A stretch of 64,000 nucleotides of DNA. It comes from Arthrobacter sp. MSA 4-2 (GTDB lineage Bacteria > Actinomycetota > Actinomycetes > Actinomycetales > Micrococcaceae). This document shows, in pieces, positions 28,365 to 39,976 of the stretch (positions are counted from its first letter, which is position 1; every line of letters starts with the position of its first letter). The stretch is taken from NCBI RefSeq assembly GCF_016405885.1, contig NZ_JAEKGC010000007.1, positions 1-64,000 of the forward strand, given 5' to 3'. A program made the position numbers and the translations under genes. The notes under the pieces were generated by a model. That model had not been told where the DNA came from. It was given only the letters and a program-made list of their open reading frames with translations, and did no database searches.

Positions 28365-30197
<1,833 letters not shown>

Positions 30198-30293
30198 GGG
30201 GTGGAATGCTCCTTCGGGTCTGATCGGAGCCTAGCGCCAAATTGTTGATTCCGCCCATAAACGGTGCCGTCGTTGCGTGTTGCGGGCCCTTCC

Positions 30294-30312
30294 TTTGTAG
30301 GGGTCCTACAAA
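30294..30312. promoter_or_regulatory. Palindromic operator candidate upstream of accBC
   Basis: TTTGTAGG-GGT-CCTACAAA: eight-base arms match perfectly. It lies between maf and accBC, 97 nt before the accBC ATG. Related palindromes precede accD (36105-36123 and weaker 36041-36059). A TetR-like fatty-acid regulator is a reasonable guess; none is encoded here. Confidence 0.65.
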
Positions 30313-30316
30313 TCGC

Positions 30317-30949
30317 TCAGGCGCGGTCCGCAGATTCCCACAGGTCGGTCACCGGGACGCCCGCCGAGGCCAGCAGGGCGCGCAGAGTGGAGATGCTCAG
30401 CCCGACCACCGTGTGCGGATCGCCCTCGATCCGTTCGATGAAGGCACCGCCCAGCCCGTCGATGGTGAAGGAGCCGGCGCAGTGAAGGGGCTCTCCGCTG
30501 GCGACGTAGGCGTCCACCTCCTGCTCGGACATCACCCCGAAGTGGACGGTGGCGGAGTTGACCCCGCCGATGGTGGCACCCGAACCGTCCTCCCGGTTGT
30601 CGACCAGCCAGTGCCCGGTGTGAAGCACCCCGGAGGAGCCGCTCATGCGCCGGATCCGGGCGCGGGCGACGTCGGGCTCGTAGGGCTTGCCGTGCGCCTC
30701 ACCCTCGAATTCGAAGATGGAGTCGCACCCCACCACGAGGGCGTCCCCGGCCTCGGGCAGGGAGGCGACCGCTTCGGCTTTGGCGCGCGCGAGCAGCAGG
30801 GACGTGTCGGAGGCGTCGAGCTCCCCGTACCCGGCCGCGACGGCGGCCTCGTCGACGTCCGAGACGAGGGTGGTGTGCCGGATGCCGGCCTCCCGAAGGA
30901 GTTTGGTGCGGGCGGGGGAGGCCGAGGCGAGGATCAGGCGCGGAGTCAT
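30317..30949 (-). CDS. maf: Maf-type nucleoside triphosphate pyrophosphatase
   Basis: 210 residues. Maf enzymes hydrolyse non-canonical or modified nucleotides to monophosphates. Seen: LILASASPARTKLLREAGI (signature SxSPxR), VVGCDSIFEFEGE and KPYEPDVARARIRRMSG, followed by the catalytic-core region GGAFIERIEGDPHTVVGLS. Gln/Asp variants decide dTTP/UTP versus others; I cannot assign it. Sits between accBC and the DUF885 gene on the same strand, as in many actinobacteria. Confidence 0.93.
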   Translation of the reverse strand: MTPRLILASASPARTKLLREAGIRHTTLVSDVDEAAVAAGYGELDASDTSLLLARAKAEAVASLPEAGDALVVGCDSIFEFEGEAHGKPYEPDVARARIRRMSGSSGVLHTGHWLVDNREDGSGATIGGVNSATVHFGVMSEQEVDAYVASGEPLHCAGSFTIDGLGGAFIERIEGDPHTVVGLSISTLRALLASAGVPVTDLWESADRA

Positions 30950-31015
30950 TCCCCTACCCTATGCAGGCGGCGGGCCGGCCGGGAACCGGGGCGGGCGGCG
31001 GCCCGCCCCGGAGCG

Positions 31016-32752
31016 TCAGCTCAGCAGCGCCCGGCGGAGCGTGTCCAGCCCCACCGACCCGAGGTTGAGGGCCCGGGTGTGGAAGGCCCGCAGGTCGAAG
31101 GCGGCGCCCTCGCGTTCCTTGACCTCGTCGCGGATCTGCTCCCAGAGCCGCTGGCCCACCTTGTAGGCGGGCGCCTGTCCGGGCCAGCCGAGGTACCGGT
31201 TGAACTCGAAGTTCAGCTGGCCCTCGCTGATGGCGATGTTGCTGCGGAGGAATTCGTAGCCCTTCTCGGGGGTCCACGTTCCCGAGCCCCACCGCTGCGG
31301 CACCTCGAGTTCGAGGTGGACGCCGATGTCGAAGACCACGCGGGCGGCACGCATCCGCTGGGCGTCGAGCATCCCGAGCCGGTCGCCGGGATCGTCGAGG
31401 AAGCCGAGTTCCTGCATCAGGCGCTCGGCGTACAGCGCCCACCCCTCGCCCTGGCCGGAGACCCAGACGGCGTTGCGCCGCCAGGAGTTCAGCAGCCGCC
31501 GCTGGTAGACGGCGGTGGCGACTTGGAGGTGGTGGCCGGGGACGCCCTCGTGGTAGACGGTCGTCGTCTCCTTCCAGGTGGTGAACGAGTCCTCACCCTC
31601 GGGCACGGACCACCACATGCGTCCGGGCCGGGAGAAATCATCGCTCGGGCCGGTGTAGTAGATGCCGCCCTCATGGGTGGGGGCGATCCGGCACTCGAGG
31701 GTGCGCATGATGTCGGGGATGTCGAAGTGCACGCCGGCGAGGGCCTGCACCGCGCCGTCGGACAGCTCCTGCATCCACTCGCGCAGCGCGTCGGTGCCAT
31801 GGAGCTGGCGGGCCGGATCGGCGTCGAGGACCGCGATGGCCTCTTCGATGGAGGCACCGGGCCGGATCTCGGAGGCGACCGCCTCCTGTTCGGCGATGAT
31901 GCGGTCGAGTTCCTCGACACCCCACTGGTACGTCTCCTCGAGGTCGACGGCGGACCCGAGGAACAGGCGAGACATCAGGGCGTAGCGTTCACGGCCGACG
32001 GCGTCCTTTTGGGGGGCACCCGGCAGCAGCTCCTCCTGCAGGAACGCGGCGAGCCCGCGGTAGGCCTGGCGGGCGGCCTCGGCTCCGCTGCGCAGCTCTG
32101 CGGCGAGCGGCCCGGTCACCGGCCCGTCGTCCGTCACCGCGCCCGCGGCGAAGCTGTCGAAGAAGCCGCCGTCCTCGGCGTACCGGGTGACCTGCTCGAT
32201 GACGATGCCGATCTGGCGGGCGGCAGCGGTCAGGCCCAGCTCCCGTCCGCGGCGCAGGGAGGTGATGTAGCCCGAGAGGGCGGCCGGAACGTTCGACAGG
32301 CGGCCGGCGATGTGCGCCCAGTGCTCCTCGGTGGCCGTCGGCATGAGGTCGAAGATGGCCCGGACGTTCTGGGCGGGGCTTTCGAGGTTGTTGAGCTCGG
32401 AGAGGTTCGCCCCGGTCTCATGGATCTCCAGTTCAAGCCCGAGGCGTTCGCGCATCGCGTCGAGGGTGACGGCGTCGACGTCGTCGACCGGCTCAAGTCC
32501 GGAGAGGTCGGCCAGGGCGGAGCGGGCCGCCTCGGCGAAGGCCTCGACGCCGGCCGGAGAGTAGTCCCGGAATTCGGTCTCCCGGCCGGGGACGCCGAGG
32601 ACCGTGGCGAATCCGGGGTCCAAGCGGGTCAGGGTCGCGGTGTAGGTCTCCGCGACGGTATCGATGGCCGTTGGCTGCCGTGCGGCACCGTCGGCGCCGG
32701 AGCCGGAGGACGGGGTGGAAGGGGTGGAGGCAGGGGGAGTCTCGTTGGTCAC
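31016..32752 (-). CDS. DUF885 family protein, probable metal-dependent carboxypeptidase-like
   Basis: 578 residues, no signal peptide. The DUF885 core motif VYHEGVPGHHLQVA (a His-Glu...Gly-His-His metal-site pattern, near residue 400) is followed by QGEGWALYAERLMQELGF, both typical of the family, which is related to zinc peptidases. Substrate unknown. The low-complexity N-terminus (TPPASTPSTPSSGSGADG) precedes the conserved fold. It lies 66 nt upstream of maf on the same strand and is divergent from the serpin gene, but I see no firm link between a peptidase and the neighbouring inhibitor. Confidence 0.85.
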   Translation of the reverse strand: MTNETPPASTPSTPSSGSGADGAARQPTAIDTVAETYTATLTRLDPGFATVLGVPGRETEFRDYSPAGVEAFAEAARSALADLSGLEPVDDVDAVTLDAMRERLGLELEIHETGANLSELNNLESPAQNVRAIFDLMPTATEEHWAHIAGRLSNVPAALSGYITSLRRGRELGLTAAARQIGIVIEQVTRYAEDGGFFDSFAAGAVTDDGPVTGPLAAELRSGAEAARQAYRGLAAFLQEELLPGAPQKDAVGRERYALMSRLFLGSAVDLEETYQWGVEELDRIIAEQEAVASEIRPGASIEEAIAVLDADPARQLHGTDALREWMQELSDGAVQALAGVHFDIPDIMRTLECRIAPTHEGGIYYTGPSDDFSRPGRMWWSVPEGEDSFTTWKETTTVYHEGVPGHHLQVATAVYQRRLLNSWRRNAVWVSGQGEGWALYAERLMQELGFLDDPGDRLGMLDAQRMRAARVVFDIGVHLELEVPQRWGSGTWTPEKGYEFLRSNIAISEGQLNFEFNRYLGWPGQAPAYKVGQRLWEQIRDEVKEREGAAFDLRAFHTRALNLGSVGLDTLRRALLS

Positions 32753-32882
32753 AGCCCGAGCCTAGCGCCGTCCGTTGCCCCGGGCTACGGTTCGGCCGAA
32801 ATATCCGCGGCAGGTCCGGGCGCCTCAGCGCGGCGCCGCGCGAAAGCACCCTTCCCTTCCTCCAGACCCCTAGGGTGAGGGC

Positions 32883-34139
32883 ATGAATACGGCGGCGGGG
32901 GACCCGCGGAGGAATTTTCAGGACCACGACCACGACCACGACCACGACCAGGGACAGGATCGTGCTCAGGACCGGCGCCCTGGACGGGACGACCGGCCGG
33001 GGCCGGTTCCGGAGGCCCTGCGCCGGAGTGCCTACCGGCTGGGCGCGGCGCTGCTGGCCGGAGCGCCCGGGAAGAACGTCGTCACCAGCCCGGTCAGTGC
33101 CCTGTGCGCCCTGCTGATGCTGCGGGCCGGGTCCGGGTCAAGCACGGCCGCCGAACTCGACGGCGTCCTCGGCCTGCCGGCGGAGGGCAGCGGCCCGGAT
33201 CTTGAGGTCCTGCTGGCCCGGCTCGCACCCTACGATGGCGACCCCGGGGCGGCGAACGCGCAGGAGCCGCCTGCCGTTCCGGTGCTGCACCTGGCCAACG
33301 GCGTGTTCGTGGACCGGAGGACGCCCACCGGGGACGCCTTCCTCGCCACGCTGGCCCGCCATTCCGGCGCCGGCGTGTATCCCGTTGACTTCGCCGATCC
33401 CGCAACGGAGGCGGTGCTGAACGGCTGGGTGTCGGAGGCCACCGGCGGGCGCATGCCGGAGGCGCCCGTCGAGTACAACCCGGAGACGACCCTGACGCTG
33501 CTCAACACCGCGTACTTCGCGGCCGCCTGGGCGGAGCCCTTTGACCCGTCCGGCACCTACCCCGAGGACTTCCGGCTGCCCGACGGCACCACCGTGGCGG
33601 TCGATCGAATGCACACCCGCACCCCGGCCCGGTATGCCGCCGGGCCCCGGTGGGTGGCGGTCGACGTCCCCTACACCGAGGGGTTCGTGCTGCGGGTCGT
33701 GCTCGCCGACGGCGACGCCGGGCCCGGCCCCGCCCTGCCTGCGTGCTCGGAGGAGGCGCTGCTTGAGGTCGCAGAGGCGATGGAGGAAGCCGGCGAGGTC
33801 TTCCTGGGGCTTGGCCTGCCGCGCTGGGAGTCCGACAGCGCCTTCGACCTGCTGCCGCTGCTGCGCAGGCTCGGCCTGCGGGAAACCCTTGGCGGCGCCC
33901 CTGACCTTTCCGCCATCCAGCCCGACGCGGCCGTCTCAGCGGCGGCCCAGGCCGCCTCGATCACCGTGGGGGAGAAGGGGGCGGTCGCCGCGGCGGTGAC
34001 CCAGTTCGAACTGATGGCCACCTCGGTGCCGGTCGATCCGGAACTGGTGGTCGAGATCGACCGGCCGTTCCTCTACGCAGTGCTCCACGAGGCCACCGGC
34101 CTGCCCCTGTTCCTCGGAACCGTCACCGACCCCCGCTGA
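32883..34139 (+). CDS. Serpin-family protease inhibitor with a His/Asp-rich N-terminus
   Basis: 418 residues. Serpins trap serine or cysteine proteases by inserting a cleaved loop into a sheet. Visible: NVVTSPVSALCALLMLRAGS, FVDRRTP, TLLNTAYFAAAW, the hinge GEKGAVAAAVT (363-373) and the end EIDRPFLYAVLHEATGLPLFLG. The small-residue hinge suggests an inhibitory loop; alignment by eye puts P1-P1' near T380-S381, uncertain. No signal peptide, so it is probably cytoplasmic. The start carries DHDHDHDHD (about 14-22), which may bind metal, and a charged linker. Bacterial serpins are sparsely distributed. Ribosome site GTGAGGGC before the ATG. Confidence 0.92.
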   Translation: MNTAAGDPRRNFQDHDHDHDHDQGQDRAQDRRPGRDDRPGPVPEALRRSAYRLGAALLAGAPGKNVVTSPVSALCALLMLRAGSGSSTAAELDGVLGLPAEGSGPDLEVLLARLAPYDGDPGAANAQEPPAVPVLHLANGVFVDRRTPTGDAFLATLARHSGAGVYPVDFADPATEAVLNGWVSEATGGRMPEAPVEYNPETTLTLLNTAYFAAAWAEPFDPSGTYPEDFRLPDGTTVAVDRMHTRTPARYAAGPRWVAVDVPYTEGFVLRVVLADGDAGPGPALPACSEEALLEVAEAMEEAGEVFLGLGLPRWESDSAFDLLPLLRRLGLRETLGGAPDLSAIQPDAAVSAAAQAASITVGEKGAVAAAVTQFELMATSVPVDPELVVEIDRPFLYAVLHEATGLPLFLGTVTDPR

Positions 34140-34169
34140 CAGGCAGGCGCCGGGCACGCGGCGGCGGTC

Positions 34170-34388
34170 CTACGTGCCGCTGCGCCGCCAGGAGCCGGGC
34201 CCTGGCAGAGGGTGCAGGCGCAGCAGGGTCCGGCGCAGCCACGCCCGGCCCGGGTGCCGCCGGTCGTTGGATTCCCCTGAGTCCGCCATGGCCAGGACGA
34301 CGGCGGTCAGCGCGGCCACCTCTTCGTCGGTGGGGTTCCCCGCCACCACGCGCAACAACGGTTCCTCCTCCGGGGCGCCGGTGCTCAC
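34170..34388 (-). CDS. accE: Acyl-CoA carboxylase epsilon subunit
   Basis: 72 residues. The motif [21 protein letters not shown] is the hallmark of the small epsilon subunit that stabilises the actinobacterial beta/alpha carboxylase complex. The tail (about 40-72) is basic with several Trp/Arg. Its start overlaps the end of the beta-subunit gene by 4 nt, so the two are co-translated. Confidence 0.88.
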
Positions 34389-35980
34389 AGCGGGATGTTC
34401 CCGTGCTTCTTGGCGGGCAGGGTGGCCCGCTTGTCACGCAGCGCCCGCAGCGCCCGGACCACCTGGACCCGCGTGTCGGAGGGGGCGATGACGGCGTCGA
34501 CGTAGCCAAGCTGCGCGGCCTGGTACGGGTTGAGCAGCTCTTCTTCGTACTGCTGGACGACCTCGGCGCGTGCCGCCTCGACGTCGCCGCCGGCCTCGGC
34601 GACGGCCTTTAGGTGGCCGCGGTAGAGAATGTTCACGGCCCCCTGGGCGCCCATGACGCCGATCTGCGCAGTCGGCCAGGCCAGGTTGAGGTCCGCGCCG
34701 AGCTTCTTTGAGCCCATCACGATGTATGCCCCGCCGTAGGCCTTGCGGGTAATCACCGTCACCTTGGGCACGGTCGCCTCGGCGTAGGCGTAGAGCAGCT
34801 TCGCGCCGCGGCGGATGATGCCGTTGAACTCCTGGTCCTTGCCGGGCAGGAAGCCCGGCACGTCGACGAGGGTCAGGATGGGGATGTTGAAGGCGTCGCA
34901 GTGGCGGACGAAGCGGGCGGCCTTCTCTGAGGCATTGATGTCGAGGGTCCCGGCGAACTGCATCGGCTGGTTGGCGACAATGCCGATGGTGTGGCCCTCC
35001 ACCCGGGCGTACCCGATGAGTACGTTCGGCGCGTAGAGCGCCTGCATCTCCAGGAAGTGGCCGTCGTCGACGATCGCGGCGATCACGGCGTGCATGTCGT
35101 AGGGCTGGTTCGCGGAGTCCGGGATCAGCGTGTCGAGCGCCTCGTCCTCGAGCGTCGTCTCGAGCATTTCGGTGAACTCCCCGAGCGGGGCCTCGGCGAG
35201 GTTGTTCGAGGGGAGGTAGTCGAGCAGTTCGCGCACGAAGCCGACGGCGTCCTGTTCGTCTGCCGCGAGGTAGGTCGAGGTGCCGGTGGTGGTGTTGTGC
35301 TGGCGTGCGCCGCCGAGGGTCTCCATGTCGACGTCCTCGCCGGTGACGGTCTTGATGACATCCGGGCCCGTGATGAACATGTGGGAGGTCTTGTCCACCA
35401 TCACCACGTAGTCGGTCAGGGCCGGCGAGTAGGCGGCCCCGCCCGCGCACGGTCCGAGGATGAGGGAGATCTGGGGGACGACGCCGGAGGCATGGACGTT
35501 GTTGCGGAAGATATCGGCGAACATGGCCAGGGAGGCGACGCCCTCCTGGATGCGGGCCCCGCCGCCGTCGTTGATGCCCACCACCGGGCAGCCGTTGCGC
35601 AGCGCGAACTCCTGGACCTTGACGATCTTCTCGCCGTTGACCTGGCTGAGGGAGCCGCCGAAGACGGTGAAGTCCTGGCTGTAGATCCCGATGAGGCGCC
35701 CGTCGACGGTGGCGTAGCCGGAGACCACGCCGTCCCCGAGGGGCCGCTTCTTGTCCATGCCGAACGCGTTCGAGCGGTGGACGGCCAGGGCGTCGAACTC
35801 GACGAAGGACCCGGGGTCGACGAGGAGGTCGATGCGCTCGCGGGCCGTGTTCTTGCCGCGGGCGTGCTGGCGTTCAACGGCCTCGGGGCCTGAAGGCAGC
35901 AGCGACTGGCTCTGCCGGCGCCGGAAATCGGCGAGCTTGCCGGCGGTCGTCTTGAGGTCGGGTTCCACGTCTTGCTTCAT
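34385..35980 (-). CDS. accD: Acyl-CoA (propionyl/acetyl-CoA) carboxylase beta subunit
   Basis: 531 residues, carboxyltransferase subunit. Two crotonase-like halves: the first has [25 protein letters not shown] and [13 protein letters not shown] (acyl-CoA oxyanion hole); the second [29 protein letters not shown] and [13 protein letters not shown]. Closest in pattern to AccD5-type propionyl-CoA carboxylases, though acetyl-CoA use is possible. I start at the ATG at 35980 with GGAGATT upstream; the frame stays open to 36433 without support. Two palindromes related to the accBC site lie upstream. Confidence 0.93.
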
Positions 35981-36040
35981 TGAATCTCCGAGTGCAGGGG
36001 GTAGGGCGGGCGTCTGGCGCGGCCGCCTCCGGAGGGCTCC

Positions 36041-36059
36041 TTGTGAGGAATCCTCCAAA
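36041..36059. promoter_or_regulatory. Weaker acc-type palindrome before accD
   Basis: TTGTGAGG-AAT-CCTCCAAA shares AGGnnTCCT and the flanking TT/AAA with the accBC site but has mismatched arms. It is 61 nt before the accD ATG and may be a second, lower-affinity site. Confidence 0.4.
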
Positions 36060-36104
36060 AAAACGAGCGACCGTCCCAGTCTAGTGAGCCAAGGGGCCCC
36101 TCCG

Positions 36105-36123
36105 ACTGTAGGACTCCTACAGG
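36105..36123. promoter_or_regulatory. Palindromic operator candidate upstream of accD
   Basis: CTGTAGG-ACT-CCTACAG (36106-36122) is a perfect inverted repeat sharing TGTAGGnnTCCTACA with the accBC site. It lies 125 nt before accD and 100 nt before the divergent SDR gene, so it could serve both. Confidence 0.6.
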
Positions 36124-36222
36124 TTCCGGCGCGAACACTTAGTCCGACCCCTCGGGTTACCGGTCGGTAACATTCGGTGCGTCGCAGCCGGTGCCGCGCT
36201 CCCTCCTGCGTATTCTTGCCGC

Positions 36223-37104
36223 ATGACCGCCAGCAACGCAGCAGAGAATCCAGTCCCGACGACGGCCGCCGACCCGCCGGAGGCACCCCTGCGCGGACGC
36301 ACCCTCCTGATGTCGGGAGGGAGCCGGGGCATCGGCCTGGCGATCGCGCTGCGTGCCGCCCGCGACGGGGCGAACATCGTGCTCCTGGCCAAGACCGGCG
36401 AGCCGCACCCGAAGCTCGAGGGAACCGTCTCAAGCGCAGCGCGCCTCATCGAGGAGGCCGGCGGAACTGCTCTGCCCCTCGTCGGCGACGTCCGCCGCGA
36501 CGAGGACGTGCGCGGCGCTGTCGACGCCGCGCTCGAGCGCTTCGGCCGGATCGACGCCGTCATCAACAACGCCTCCGCCATCGACCTCTCGCGCACTCCC
36601 GAGGTCGACATGAAGCGGTACGACCTGATGGCCGACGTCAACGTCCGCGGCACCTTTCTGCTCAGCAAGTTCTCACTCGACGCGCTGCGCCGCTCCGACA
36701 ACCCGCACATCCTTACCCTGTCCCCGCCGCTGAACCTTGACCCGAAGTGGGCCGGCGCGCACCTCGCCTACACCCTGGCCAAGTATGGGATGAGCCTGAC
36801 CACGCTCGGCCTGGCGGAGGAGCTGCGCGGGGAGGGCATCGCCGTGAACTCCCTGTGGCCGAAGACCCTGATCGACACTGCGGCGATCCGCAATATGCCA
36901 GGCGGCGGCACCCTGGTCCAGGCCGCCCGCCGCCCGGAGATCGTCGCCGACGCGGCACACGCGGTGCTCTCGCGCAGCTCACGCAGCTGCACCGGCAACT
37001 TCTTCACCGACGAGGAGGTGCTCCGGGAGGAGGGAGTGAGCGACTTTCGCCCCTACAGCCTGGGTGCGCCGGAGGACCGGCTCGTCCAGGACATTTTCCT
37101 TTGA
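36223..37104 (+). CDS. Short-chain dehydrogenase/reductase (HSDL2-like)
   Basis: 293 residues. NAD(P)-binding [21 protein letters not shown] motif ([10 protein letters not shown]), and catalytic Tyr/Lys in [10 protein letters not shown]. The longer form with [14 protein letters not shown] and the C-terminal [14 protein letters not shown] segment resembles the HSDL2-like SDR group linked to fatty-acid metabolism. The substrate is unknown. It is divergent from accD, with the acc-type palindrome between them, which fits a lipid role by inference. Confidence 0.9.
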
Positions 37105-37141
37105 TCCGGTGGGCGCTGCCCGGCTGGGTAGAATCGGAGGC

Positions 37142-38035
37142 ATGACCAACCGCTACTCAAACCTGGAGCGACCCGGTTTGGACGCGGCGGCGCTGTCGGT
37201 GGCCCTGTGCGCGCCGGCCGGACCGTATGCGCGAGTGGAGCTGGTTCAGGAGACCGGCTCCACGAACGACGATCTGGCCGGGCTGGCCGAGCTGGAACCC
37301 GGGCAGTGGCCGGACCTTTCGGTGCTGACGGCGGAGATGCAGCGCGCGGGGCGCGGACGGCTCGGCCGCAGCTGGGTGGCCCCGGAGCGGTCCTCCCTGA
37401 TCGTGAGCCTGCTGCTGCGGCCCGTGAACGCCGGCGGCAGGCCCCTCCCGACGGAAAGCTACTCCTGGCTTTCGCTGCTTGCCGCCCTGGCCCTGGCCGA
37501 GAGCGTGGAGGACCGCACCGAGGTGAGCCCGCAGCTGAAGTGGCCCAACGATGTCATCGTCGATTCCCGCAAGCTGGCGGGGGTGCTCGCCCGGTTCGTT
37601 CCCGGAGCGAACGGCTCGCCGCCGGCCCTGGTGGTGGGGGTCGGGCTCAATGTCAGCCTCACCGATTCGGAACTGCCGGTGCCCACCGCCACCTCCCTGC
37701 TGCTTGAGTATGCGGGCACCACGGACCGCAATATCCTCCTGAAGTCCTTCCTGCGCACCTTCGCCGCCCGCTACGCGGCCTTCTGCGCCGTCGACGGCGA
37801 CGCCTCCGCCACCCTCGCGGACGGGAGCACCCTCGCCGAAGCGGTTTCCGGGCGCATGCACACCCTCGGGCGGGCCGTCCGGGCGGAACTTCCCGGCGGC
37901 CGTGAACTGACCGGCCACGCGCTGGCGCTCGATGAGCGCGGCGGGCTCGTGATGCGCGACGACGACGGCGGGCGGCACACCGTCTCCGTCGGCGACATCG
38001 TGCACCTGCGGCCCGCGGATCAGGACGCCGGATGA
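37142..38035 (+). CDS. birA: Biotin--protein ligase
   Basis: 297 residues. It activates biotin with ATP and attaches it to carrier lysines such as K575 of the AccBC protein in this window. Motifs: ETGSTNDDL, RAGRGRLGRSW (biotinyl-AMP loop), LKWPNDVIVDSRKLAG, and a C-terminal SH3-like domain. There is no N-terminal helix-turn-helix, so this form should not act as a repressor. ATG at 37142 follows CGGAGG closely. It is 37 nt after the SDR gene, in a carboxylase neighbourhood. Confidence 0.94.
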   Translation: MTNRYSNLERPGLDAAALSVALCAPAGPYARVELVQETGSTNDDLAGLAELEPGQWPDLSVLTAEMQRAGRGRLGRSWVAPERSSLIVSLLLRPVNAGGRPLPTESYSWLSLLAALALAESVEDRTEVSPQLKWPNDVIVDSRKLAGVLARFVPGANGSPPALVVGVGLNVSLTDSELPVPTATSLLLEYAGTTDRNILLKSFLRTFAARYAAFCAVDGDASATLADGSTLAEAVSGRMHTLGRAVRAELPGGRELTGHALALDERGGLVMRDDDGGRHTVSVGDIVHLRPADQDAG

Positions 38036-38136: not shown

Positions 38137-38759
38137 AGGTGAAACTCGCCCCCGGCGAGCAGGTCCTCACCCGGACGCGGGCCACCCCGCGGAGCCTTGT
38201 GTGGCCGTCGATCGGTGCCCTGGTCGTGCTCACCGCCGGCGGCTACGCCCTGGGCTGGCTCAGCCGCGCCGCGGTGCCGCCGGAGCTGCAGCAGTGGCAG
38301 CCCCTGCTCGTCACGGTGGCGGCCGTCGGCGGCGCCCTGCTGCTGCTGAGGATGTTCCTCCGCCCGCTGCTGCGCTGGCTGGCCGGCCGCTATATCCTCA
38401 CCAGCCACCGGCTCATCCACCGCCGCGGGATGACCAAGCGGAGCCTGTACGAGGTGCCGCTGGCCGCCGTCCACCAGGTGGGGGTGACACAGTCCCTGGT
38501 GCAGCGGCCTTTCGGCAGCGGAACGCTCACCCTCGACCTGGGGTTCGGCCGCTCGGTCAGCTACCGCGACGTGCCCTGCGCCGACGTGTTCAGGGACCAC
38601 GTCGCCGAAGCGATCGGACAGCTCCCGCAGTCGGCACTCTTCAACGGCCGTGCCATGATGGGTCAGCCCGGACCGGACCAGTGGCCGGACCAGGGGCAGT
38701 CCGCGCATCCGGAAGCACGGCAGGAGGGCCCCGGAGGGGCCTGGAGGGGGGCGGTATGA
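38133..38759 (+). CDS. PH-domain (bPH2/YdbS-like) membrane protein
   Basis: 208 residues. Two membrane helices (about 25-48 and 58-80) are followed by a bacterial PH-like domain (ILTSHRLIHRRGMTKRSLYEVPLAAVHQ..., about 88-165), then a Pro/Gln-rich tail. The family is uncharacterised; the membrane-proximal PH fold may bind proteins or lipids. Its stop overlaps the cyclase ATG as ATGA, implying coupled synthesis and perhaps membrane anchoring of the cyclase; the latter is inference. Confidence 0.85.
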   Translation: MKVKLAPGEQVLTRTRATPRSLVWPSIGALVVLTAGGYALGWLSRAAVPPELQQWQPLLVTVAAVGGALLLLRMFLRPLLRWLAGRYILTSHRLIHRRGMTKRSLYEVPLAAVHQVGVTQSLVQRPFGSGTLTLDLGFGRSVSYRDVPCADVFRDHVAEAIGQLPQSALFNGRAMMGQPGPDQWPDQGQSAHPEARQEGPGGAWRGAV

Positions 38760-39976
38760 CCACCGCAAGCCGTCCCGACGCCGACGCCGACGCGGACACC
38801 GCCGTGCCCCCGGCGCCCAAGGCCGTGTGGCAGCCGCAGGAACTGCCCGGATCGAACGGGCACCCCGGTGAACGCCCGGACCCCGCACCCGCCCCTGTGC
38901 CCGCACCCGCGCCCGCGCCCGCTTCCGCCTCCGCCGACCCTCACCGCGAAGCGATCCGGGCGCTGGAGATTGAACTCCTCGGGGCGGAACGCACCCTGCG
39001 CCGGCGCGAGGTGGCCGCCCGCGCCGGGGTCTCCCTGCTGTCGGCCCGCAAGCTCTGGCGCGCCATGGGCTTCCCCAATATCGGGGACGAGGATGTCGCC
39101 TTCACCGAGAAGGACAAGGAAGCGCTGACGACCATCATCGAACTGGTCCGGCAGGAACAGCTCACCGAGGACGCCGCCATCTCCATCACCCGGGCGGTCG
39201 GCCAGATGACCGACCGCATGGTGGTGTGGCAGATCGAGGCCATCGTCGAGGAGATGGTCGTCCAGCGCGGCATCCCCGACGCCGTCGCCCGCAAGGCGCT
39301 GGTCTCGGAGCTCCCCGACCTGATCGAGCCCCTCGAGAAGATGTTGGTGTACGCGTGGCGGCGCCAGATGAACGCCGCCGTCCAGCGCCTGGCCCTCCGG
39401 GCCGAGTCGGGCCTGCGGGCGAGCGAGGAGGGCCGGGACGGGGACGAGGACGACGCACCCCTGCCGCTGGCGCGCGCCGTCGGATTCGCGGACCTGGTGT
39501 CCTACACCAGCCTGTCCCGGCAGATGAACGAGCGCACCCTCGCCCAGCTGGTGCAGCGGTTCGAGAACAAGTGCGCCGAGATCATCTCGGTCGGCGGCGG
39601 CCGGCTGGTGAAGACCATCGGCGATGAAGTCCTCTACATCGCCGAATCGCCCGAGGCCGGCGCGGAGATCTCCCTGGCCCTCGCCAAGGCCTTCACCGAA
39701 GACGACCTGCTGCCCTCGGCCCGGGTCTCCATGGTGTGGGGCAGGATCCTCTCCCGCCTCGGCGACATCTACGGTCCCACGGTCAACCTTGCCGCACGGC
39801 TGACGTCGCTGGCGGAACCGGGCACCGTGCTCATCGACGCCATGACCGCCTCCACCCTCGGCGGCAATGAGAAGTTTGTCCTGATTCCGCAGCAGGCCCG
39901 CACCGTGCGCGGTTTCGGGGAGGTCCACCCGGTGACCCTGGCGCGGGGGACCGGCAGCGGACTGGTGCTCGACTGA
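38756..39976 (+). CDS. Class III adenylate cyclase with N-terminal regulatory domain
   Basis: 406 residues, soluble. After a Pro/Ala-rich start (about 30-60) comes an all-helical region (about 65-215, LRRREVAARAGVSLLSARKLW...) resembling the autoinhibitory, pH-sensing domain of mycobacterial Rv1264-type cyclases. The catalytic domain (about 235-395) keeps the key residues: metal Asp D246 and D290, adenine-binding K286 (LVKTIGDEV), and transition-state N344 and R348 (GPTVNLAARL). It should make cAMP. Starts inside the preceding gene's stop. Confidence 0.92.
   Translation: MTTASRPDADADADTAVPPAPKAVWQPQELPGSNGHPGERPDPAPAPVPAPAPAPASASADPHREAIRALEIELLGAERTLRRREVAARAGVSLLSARKLWRAMGFPNIGDEDVAFTEKDKEALTTIIELVRQEQLTEDAAISITRAVGQMTDRMVVWQIEAIVEEMVVQRGIPDAVARKALVSELPDLIEPLEKMLVYAWRRQMNAAVQRLALRAESGLRASEEGRDGDEDDAPLPLARAVGFADLVSYTSLSRQMNERTLAQLVQRFENKCAEIISVGGGRLVKTIGDEVLYIAESPEAGAEISLALAKAFTEDDLLPSARVSMVWGRILSRLGDIYGPTVNLAARLTSLAEPGTVLIDAMTASTLGGNEKFVLIPQQARTVRGFGEVHPVTLARGTGSGLVLD

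Follow-up and report, generated by a model that had tools for sequence, protein, structure and literature searches.

Genes and Palindromic Boxes at the acc Loci

We analyzed a 64,000-nt stretch of DNA (hereafter, the window) of Arthrobacter sp. MSA 4-2 (contig NZ_JAEKGC010000007.1, positions 1 to 64,000), in which short palindromic boxes lie upstream of two loci encoding acetyl-CoA carboxylase (acc), which catalyzes the committed and rate-limiting step in the synthesis of fatty acids. The genes and boxes are listed in Table 1. The accE gene overlaps the end of accD by 4 nt and probably belongs to the same operon.

Table 1. Genes, boxes and other elements at the two acc loci (coordinates of the window)
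Feature	Coordinates	Strand	Position or domains	Basis
accBC box TTTGTAGGGGTCCTACAAA, FasR-type	30294..30312	.	96 nt before accBC start (30197)	sequence
accD distal box CTGTAGGACTCCTACAG, strong, FasR-type	36106..36122	.		sequence
accD proximal box, weak	36041..36059	.	64 bp from distal box	
Candidate −10 element of accD, TAGACT	36078..36083	-	22 bp after distal box	conserved columns
accBC, biotin carboxylase/biotin carrier subunit	28365..30197	-		Pfam Biotin_carb_N, Biotin_carb_C, Biotin_lipoyl
accD, carboxyltransferase subunit	34385..35980	-		Pfam Carboxyl_trans
accE, epsilon subunit	34170..34388	-		PF13822 ACC_epsilon 7e-19
SDR oxidoreductase gene	36223..37104	+	divergent from accD, common control region	NCBIfam NF006133, Pfam adh_short
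birA, biotin-protein ligase	37064..38035	+		NCBIfam TIGR00121
Palindrome TTACCGGTCGGTAA, differs from FasR-type box	36157..36170	.	near SDR start	TTAC-N6-GTAA

The accBC palindrome is perfect, and the inner part of the strong accD box, TGTAGG-N3-CCTACA, was exact at 36107–36121; both boxes are short inverted repeats. From CTGTAGGACTCCTACAG, it is 125 nt to the accD start (35980) and 100 nt to that of the divergent SDR gene (36223). The original prediction, made from the letters of this DNA, had described both palindromes, a weaker version close to accD, the location of the accD site before the SDR gene as well, and the lack of further copies in the window. All of these were recovered; the distance to accBC was one nucleotide shorter than the 97 nt given there, and the weaker version is a second box conserved in the genus.

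In the 3.59-Mb genome, the pattern TGTAGGnnnCCTACA was matched exactly at the two acc sites and nowhere else, versus about 0.07 exact matches expected from base composition. No further match with fewer than three mismatches was found in the window, and 21 others among the matches listed need three. The acc palindromes are real and not a product of chance.

Other Sites in the Genome and the fasR–fabD Locus

The source genome was searched for further targets with the core TTGTAG-N5-CTACAA. With zero or one mismatch, it occurred in five places: at accBC (C33:30295), fabD (C22:312759), fasR (C22:311442), the biotin uptake gene bioY (C35:36415), and nrdR. The accD box differs from this core at two positions and matches TGTAGG-N3-CCTACA exactly. 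The one-mismatch FasR-type site between hisD and nrdR (C4:57205-57221; L003 1500-1516) is either a chance match or an extra target.

A gene for a PucR-type regulator, the homologue of MabR and FasR and here called fasR, was found directly upstream of fabD on contig C22, away from the acc loci (fasR at G000:C22:311460-312746; L004: fasR 201-1490, fabD 1584-2546); this arrangement, regulator then fabD, was present in 38 of 38 loci of the genus. The 429-aa fasR product has GGDEF-like and PucR helix-turn-helix (HTH) domains (PF17853, PF13556) and matches both solved parts of mycobacterial MabR (Rv2242), the C-terminal (9f80) and the N-terminal (9fb1). Its HTH segment, LFVHANTVRYRLRR, is near-identical to LFVHPNTVRYRLKR of Rv2242. 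The fabD gene is followed by fabH-, acyl-carrier-protein- and fabF-like genes. The fabD box, CTTGTAGAGTTCCTACAAA, lies at −85 and fits the TTTTGT-N9-ACAAAA type; this 19-bp box begins 85 bases ahead of the fabD start used at every genus locus. A second fasR–fabD locus (G033:C136:33002-34285, L151), 95% identical to fasR of the source genome, occurs in one congeneric assembly whose contamination is 4% and which is probably mixed.

The MabR operator is TTTTGT(N)9ACAAAA; FasR, the orthologue of MabR in Streptomyces coelicolor, uses a repeat closely resembling it and is an inducer of the fasII operon (PMC5541348). Low MabR leads to lower fasII expression, hence its description as an activator, and acyl-CoA sensing has been proposed for it (PMC5541348); FasR activates fabDHPF (PMC7324645). 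The full motif of our boxes, TTTGT-N9-ACAAA, resembles the mycobacterial operator, from which the accBC box TTTGTAGGGGTCCTACAAA departs at 2 of 12 positions. The likeness of the accD box rests on the inner TGTAGG-N3-CCTACA together with its conservation.

Conservation in the Genus

The regions upstream of fasR, fabD, accBC, accD, and bioY were compared in 38 congeneric genomes. Exact TGTAGG-N3-CCTACA was present at one to three sites in 35 of these genomes, giving 50 sites in total versus 8 for the reversed control. Twenty lay before accBC, 16 before accD, 12 before bioY, and one before fabD, so that 49 of the 50 were assigned; the matches thus concentrate at acc and fatty-acid genes, an outcome that the original prediction had named as support for the regulon. 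The remaining match (G028:C1:2421750) extends over the final codons of a 236-aa open reading frame, GNAT-like by eye, and was taken as chance.

At up to two mismatches, the core stood upstream of fabD, fasR, accBC, and bioY in 38/38 regions each (the gene start of bioY being uncertain in G021) and upstream of accD in 37/37; the 38th accD region was not in that comparison, and its boxes were found separately (38/38 loci at the same threshold). Upstream of accBC, the 12-base core was found with at most one mismatch in all 38 regions. With 59 permuted half-sites, the mean number of regions hit was 0.10 for fabD, 0.59 for fasR, 0.10 for accBC, 0.44 for accD, and 0.34 for bioY. The columns of the box carry 1.6–1.9 bits each, those of the 30 bases to its left 0.4–0.8, and those of the 30 bases to its right, on the promoter side, 0.7–1.2.

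Conservation in the Family and Class and Loss in Rothia

Beyond the genus, 80 named loci were analyzed: 59 from Micrococcaceae (L258-L314, L330, L336), of which at least five represent genomes also included in the genus set, and 21 from an outgroup of Streptomyces, Nocardioides, Kineococcus, and one metagenome assembly. In the family, the core was found in the accD region of 48/59 loci at one mismatch or fewer and of 51/59 at two or fewer (permuted maxima 1 and 5). Before accBC, which was in reach in 36 loci, the corresponding counts were 30 and 31 (permuted maxima 0 and 2). The supposition that the motif is kept before acc genes of relatives was thus borne out at both loci.

In the outgroup, the accD core was found in 0/21 regions at up to three mismatches. 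For accBC, the counts were 0/18 at one mismatch, 9/18 at two, and 14/18 at three, and all 14 were from Streptomyces. Upstream of accBC in Streptomyces (L315-L337), 14 of 15 aligned regions contained an island with a box-like sequence, e.g., TTCGTAGGGACTCCACAAAG, approximately 160–210 bases before the start; accBC in Streptomyces is a possible separate case of an acc box.

The fasR gene was found in 120 of 148 genomes of the class. In a sample of 20 of these 120, hand-picked from 16 families, a box with at most two mismatches was present at fabD in 16 (at −83 to −99), at accBC in two, and at accD in two. The box at fabD is thus old, and boxes at acc genes are mainly a trait of Micrococcaceae.

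Among 27 named genomes checked for fasR, 21 of them from Micrococcaceae, the gene was missing in all four Rothia and present in the 23 others, each of which had a fabD box with at most two mismatches at −83 to −85. In Rothia, the accD box was found in 0/4 genomes, no accBC box was found in the one genome where accBC was seen, and no fabD box stood at the usual −85 place (0/4), one genome having a two-mismatch match at −142. These four were the only ones among the 59 family genomes in which no acc box was seen at up to two mismatches.

Paired Boxes and Promoter Geometry

The second accD box lies 64 bp from the strong one in 35 of the 38 genus loci and 65, 77, and 86 bp from it in the other three. 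Among the 51 family accD regions with a strong box, where partners with up to four mismatches were accepted, the spacing was 64 bp in 35, 65 bp in 3, 55 bp in 4 (all Nesterenkonia), and 76, 77, and 83 bp once each; a second box was not found in the remaining 6. At the three-mismatch level, 25/51 regions had a partner 40–100 bp away and 18/51 at exactly 64 bp, versus means of 1.3 and 0 and maxima of 14 and 0 for the 59 permuted half-sites. A second, weaker bioY box at 64–65 bp was present in 15/38 genus genomes.

The other accD spacings (55, 65, 76, 77, 83, and 86 bp) all lie within 2.5 bp of whole 10.5-bp turns relative to 64 bp, a fit that each would show by chance about half the time and that comprises few independent changes; the spacing of 83 bp (Kocuria atrinae) rests on a four-mismatch partner. 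Such near-whole-turn spacings may point to cooperation or bridging, but are suggestive only. MabR forms tetramers in solution, while DNA apparently favors the dimer (PMC11617747), which weighs against bridging by a tetramer.

We located promoter elements by eye, using the conserved columns beside the boxes. The hexamer TAGTCT or TAATCT follows the bioY box by 22 bp, and TATGCT follows the fasR box by about 25 bp; from the latter position, fasR likely starts at L004:237 and not at 201. At accD (Table 1), bioY, and fasR, a box 22–25 bp before a −10-like hexamer would cover the −35 position, which is common among activators. At accBC, where the box lies further upstream than at the other loci, 61 bp separate it from the conserved TAGGCT. 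On the SDR side, the conserved CACTTAG begins 13 bp from the strong accD box, so this box may serve both directions.

Proposed Regulation and Alternative Explanations

Taken as a whole, the sequences make it very probable that the PucR-type FasR co-regulates bioY, accBC, accDE, and the fabD-fabH-acpP-fabF cluster through these boxes, with SDR-birA as a possible further target. We infer the binding of FasR to the boxes, activation, and control by an acyl-CoA-type ligand; FasR is likely an activator here. A FasR dimer would bind TTTGT-N9-ACAAA, and in Micrococcaceae the regulon, at first that of the fabD cluster, would have come to include fasR itself, accBC, accDE, bioY, and possibly SDR-birA. 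FasR, perhaps sensing acyl-CoA, would then raise transcription of the fabD cluster, accBC, accDE, and bioY together, and malonyl-CoA supply, import of the biotin cofactor, and the synthase would thereby be matched. The original prediction of a dedicated regulator of malonyl-CoA supply stands as far as a fatty-acid regulator is concerned, but not as to its being dedicated, the fabD cluster being an older and wider target; in place of the TetR or GntR protein suggested there, the best candidate is the PucR-type FasR/MabR homologue beside fabD.

A wider scheme is possible but rather doubtful: one PucR-type regulator would govern bioY, possibly SDR-birA, acetyl-CoA carboxylase, and the fab cluster, two FasR dimers would bridge the paired boxes of accD and of some bioY genes, which stand on roughly the same helix face (55, 64/65, 76/77, or 86 bp apart), as a dose-sensitive switch, and FasR would control accBC in Streptomyces as well.

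Control by FasR is supported by the sequences, their positions and conservation, the co-absence in Rothia, the likeness of the operators, and the HTH segment. Several observations weigh against it. At up to two mismatches, there was no genome-wide excess of TGTAGGnnnCCTACA (69 sites versus 119 for the reversed pattern) or of TTGTAG-N5-CTACAA (26 versus 144 for the control), which confines the signal to the best sites, with zero or one mismatch, and to conservation. The genus genomes are related and their counts are not independent, and at two mismatches the highest counts for single permuted half-sites were 2 (fabD), 17 (fasR), 3 (accBC), 11 (accD), and 5 (bioY) regions. The best accD match to the MabR operator has 4 mismatches of 12, its outer TTTGT/ACAAA ends deviating. 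A promoter scan gave no sigma-70 consensus match in 30150–36300, the elements having been placed by eye only. In the class sample, 4/20 genomes with fasR lacked a fabD box at up to two mismatches; 4/4 Nesterenkonia lacked the accBC box, and Enteractinococcus and Yaniella lacked accD boxes, although fasR was present. Finally, Rothia is one clade, two of its four genomes are metagenome assemblies, and the co-absence may be one event.

Another regulator, e.g., of the TetR or GntR type, could act on the acc and bioY boxes, leaving FasR to act on fabD only. In other bacteria, certain acc genes are under TetR regulators, namely FasR of Corynebacterium glutamicum and AccR of Streptomyces avermitilis (PMC11602165, PMC10933834). 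However, the same core stands at all loci, one regulator family has a published operator of that shape, fasR itself carries a box, and boxes and fasR are jointly absent in Rothia. Known operators also fit poorly in the two acc upstream regions: that of C. glutamicum FasR, AAAANATGACNANNTCCTCATNTTT, needs 9 and 10 mismatches of 20; that of AccR, GTTAA-N6-TTAAC, 4 and 2 of 10, the two-mismatch match being the palindrome at 36157; and the BioQ motif, TGAAC-N3-GTTCA (PMC3398298), 4 and 5 of 10. We therefore consider a separate regulator of acc and bioY improbable.

The boxes might instead answer to biotin, with BirA or a BioQ-like protein as mediator: accBC, birA, and bioY all have to do with biotin, bioY is boxed in every genome of the genus set, and most family loci carry a birA gene on the divergent side of accD. 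This is very improbable: fabD and fasR, which are not biotin genes, carry conserved boxes, and the BioQ motif was not matched at acc. The birA product has ligase-type Pfam domains only, with no DNA-binding domain recognized by Pfam, which makes BirA a possible target and not the regulator.

That the palindromes form RNA hairpins in leaders and are not protein operators is scarcely credible; short inverted repeats, of which the accBC one is perfect, would suit this reading, but the accD, bioY, and fasR boxes lie upstream of the conserved −10-like hexamer, and inner positions vary without keeping the pairing, e.g., TTTGTAGC-TTC-CCTACAAA in accBC of relatives. Chance palindromes can practically be dismissed: nothing beyond the missing genome-wide excess at up to two mismatches speaks for them, while the two exact sites both lie at acc and conservation across the family refutes them.

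Other Features of the Region

The palindrome TTAC-N6-GTAA near the SDR start was found at −48 from the distal accD box in 30/37 genus regions, versus 0 for the reversed control. Among the 45 family loci with a divergent SDR gene, it lies at −45 to −48 in 22, elsewhere in 8, and is absent in 15; it was found in 0/14 family loci without that gene. It is probably the operator of another regulator, that of the SDR gene.

A serpin (serine protease inhibitor) gene (32883–34139, + strand; Pfam Serpin 6e-62) lies between a DUF885 gene and accE/accD; serpin genes are uncommon in bacteria. Downstream of birA, an adenylate cyclase-like protein is encoded (38201–39976, + strand; Guanylate_cyc 4e-9).

Comparison with Known Systems

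The type of regulator and the type of operator are known; what appears to be new is that the regulon takes in both acc loci, bioY, and fasR. The literature searched, which did not extend to the founding FasR paper or to most other papers under subscription, contained no account of acc or bioY genes controlled by a PucR-type FasR. Acc-specific regulators were called elusive in 2024 (PMC11602165). If the proposed regulation is true, both acc loci would answer to a PucR-type FasR in addition to the fab cluster and biotin uptake. Such a regulon would be compact and open to direct tests, with Rothia as a case of natural loss, and could guide the engineering of malonyl-CoA supply in actinobacteria. 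Were the accBC island of Streptomyces also under FasR, control of the carboxylase by this regulator would extend far beyond Micrococcaceae.

As in strain MSA 4-2, the gene for FasR of Streptomyces coelicolor (SCO2386) is of the PucR type and lies upstream of fabD, and its product is an activator with a similar inverted repeat (PMC5541348, PMC7324645). The target reported for it in those papers is the fabDHPF operon, whereas here accBC, accDE, bioY, and fasR are also boxed. Mycobacterium MabR (Rv2242) shares the GGDEF-like and PucR HTH domains and the operator type and activates fasII; however, it drives the fatty-acid synthase II of mycolic-acid synthesis, in contrast to the synthase of the fabD-fabH-acpP-fabF type and the separate boxed acc and bioY loci found here. 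The mycobacterial fasII operon includes accD6.

Joint control of acc and fatty-acid synthase genes is known for FasR of Corynebacterium glutamicum, a TetR family protein (PMC10933834), but this is a repressor from another protein family with a different operator. Regulators of acc genes named AccR have been described in Streptomyces avermitilis (TetR) and Shewanella (LysR) (PMC11602165, PMC10933834); both belong to protein families other than that of FasR in strain MSA 4-2, and the operator of the S. avermitilis protein differs from the boxes described here.

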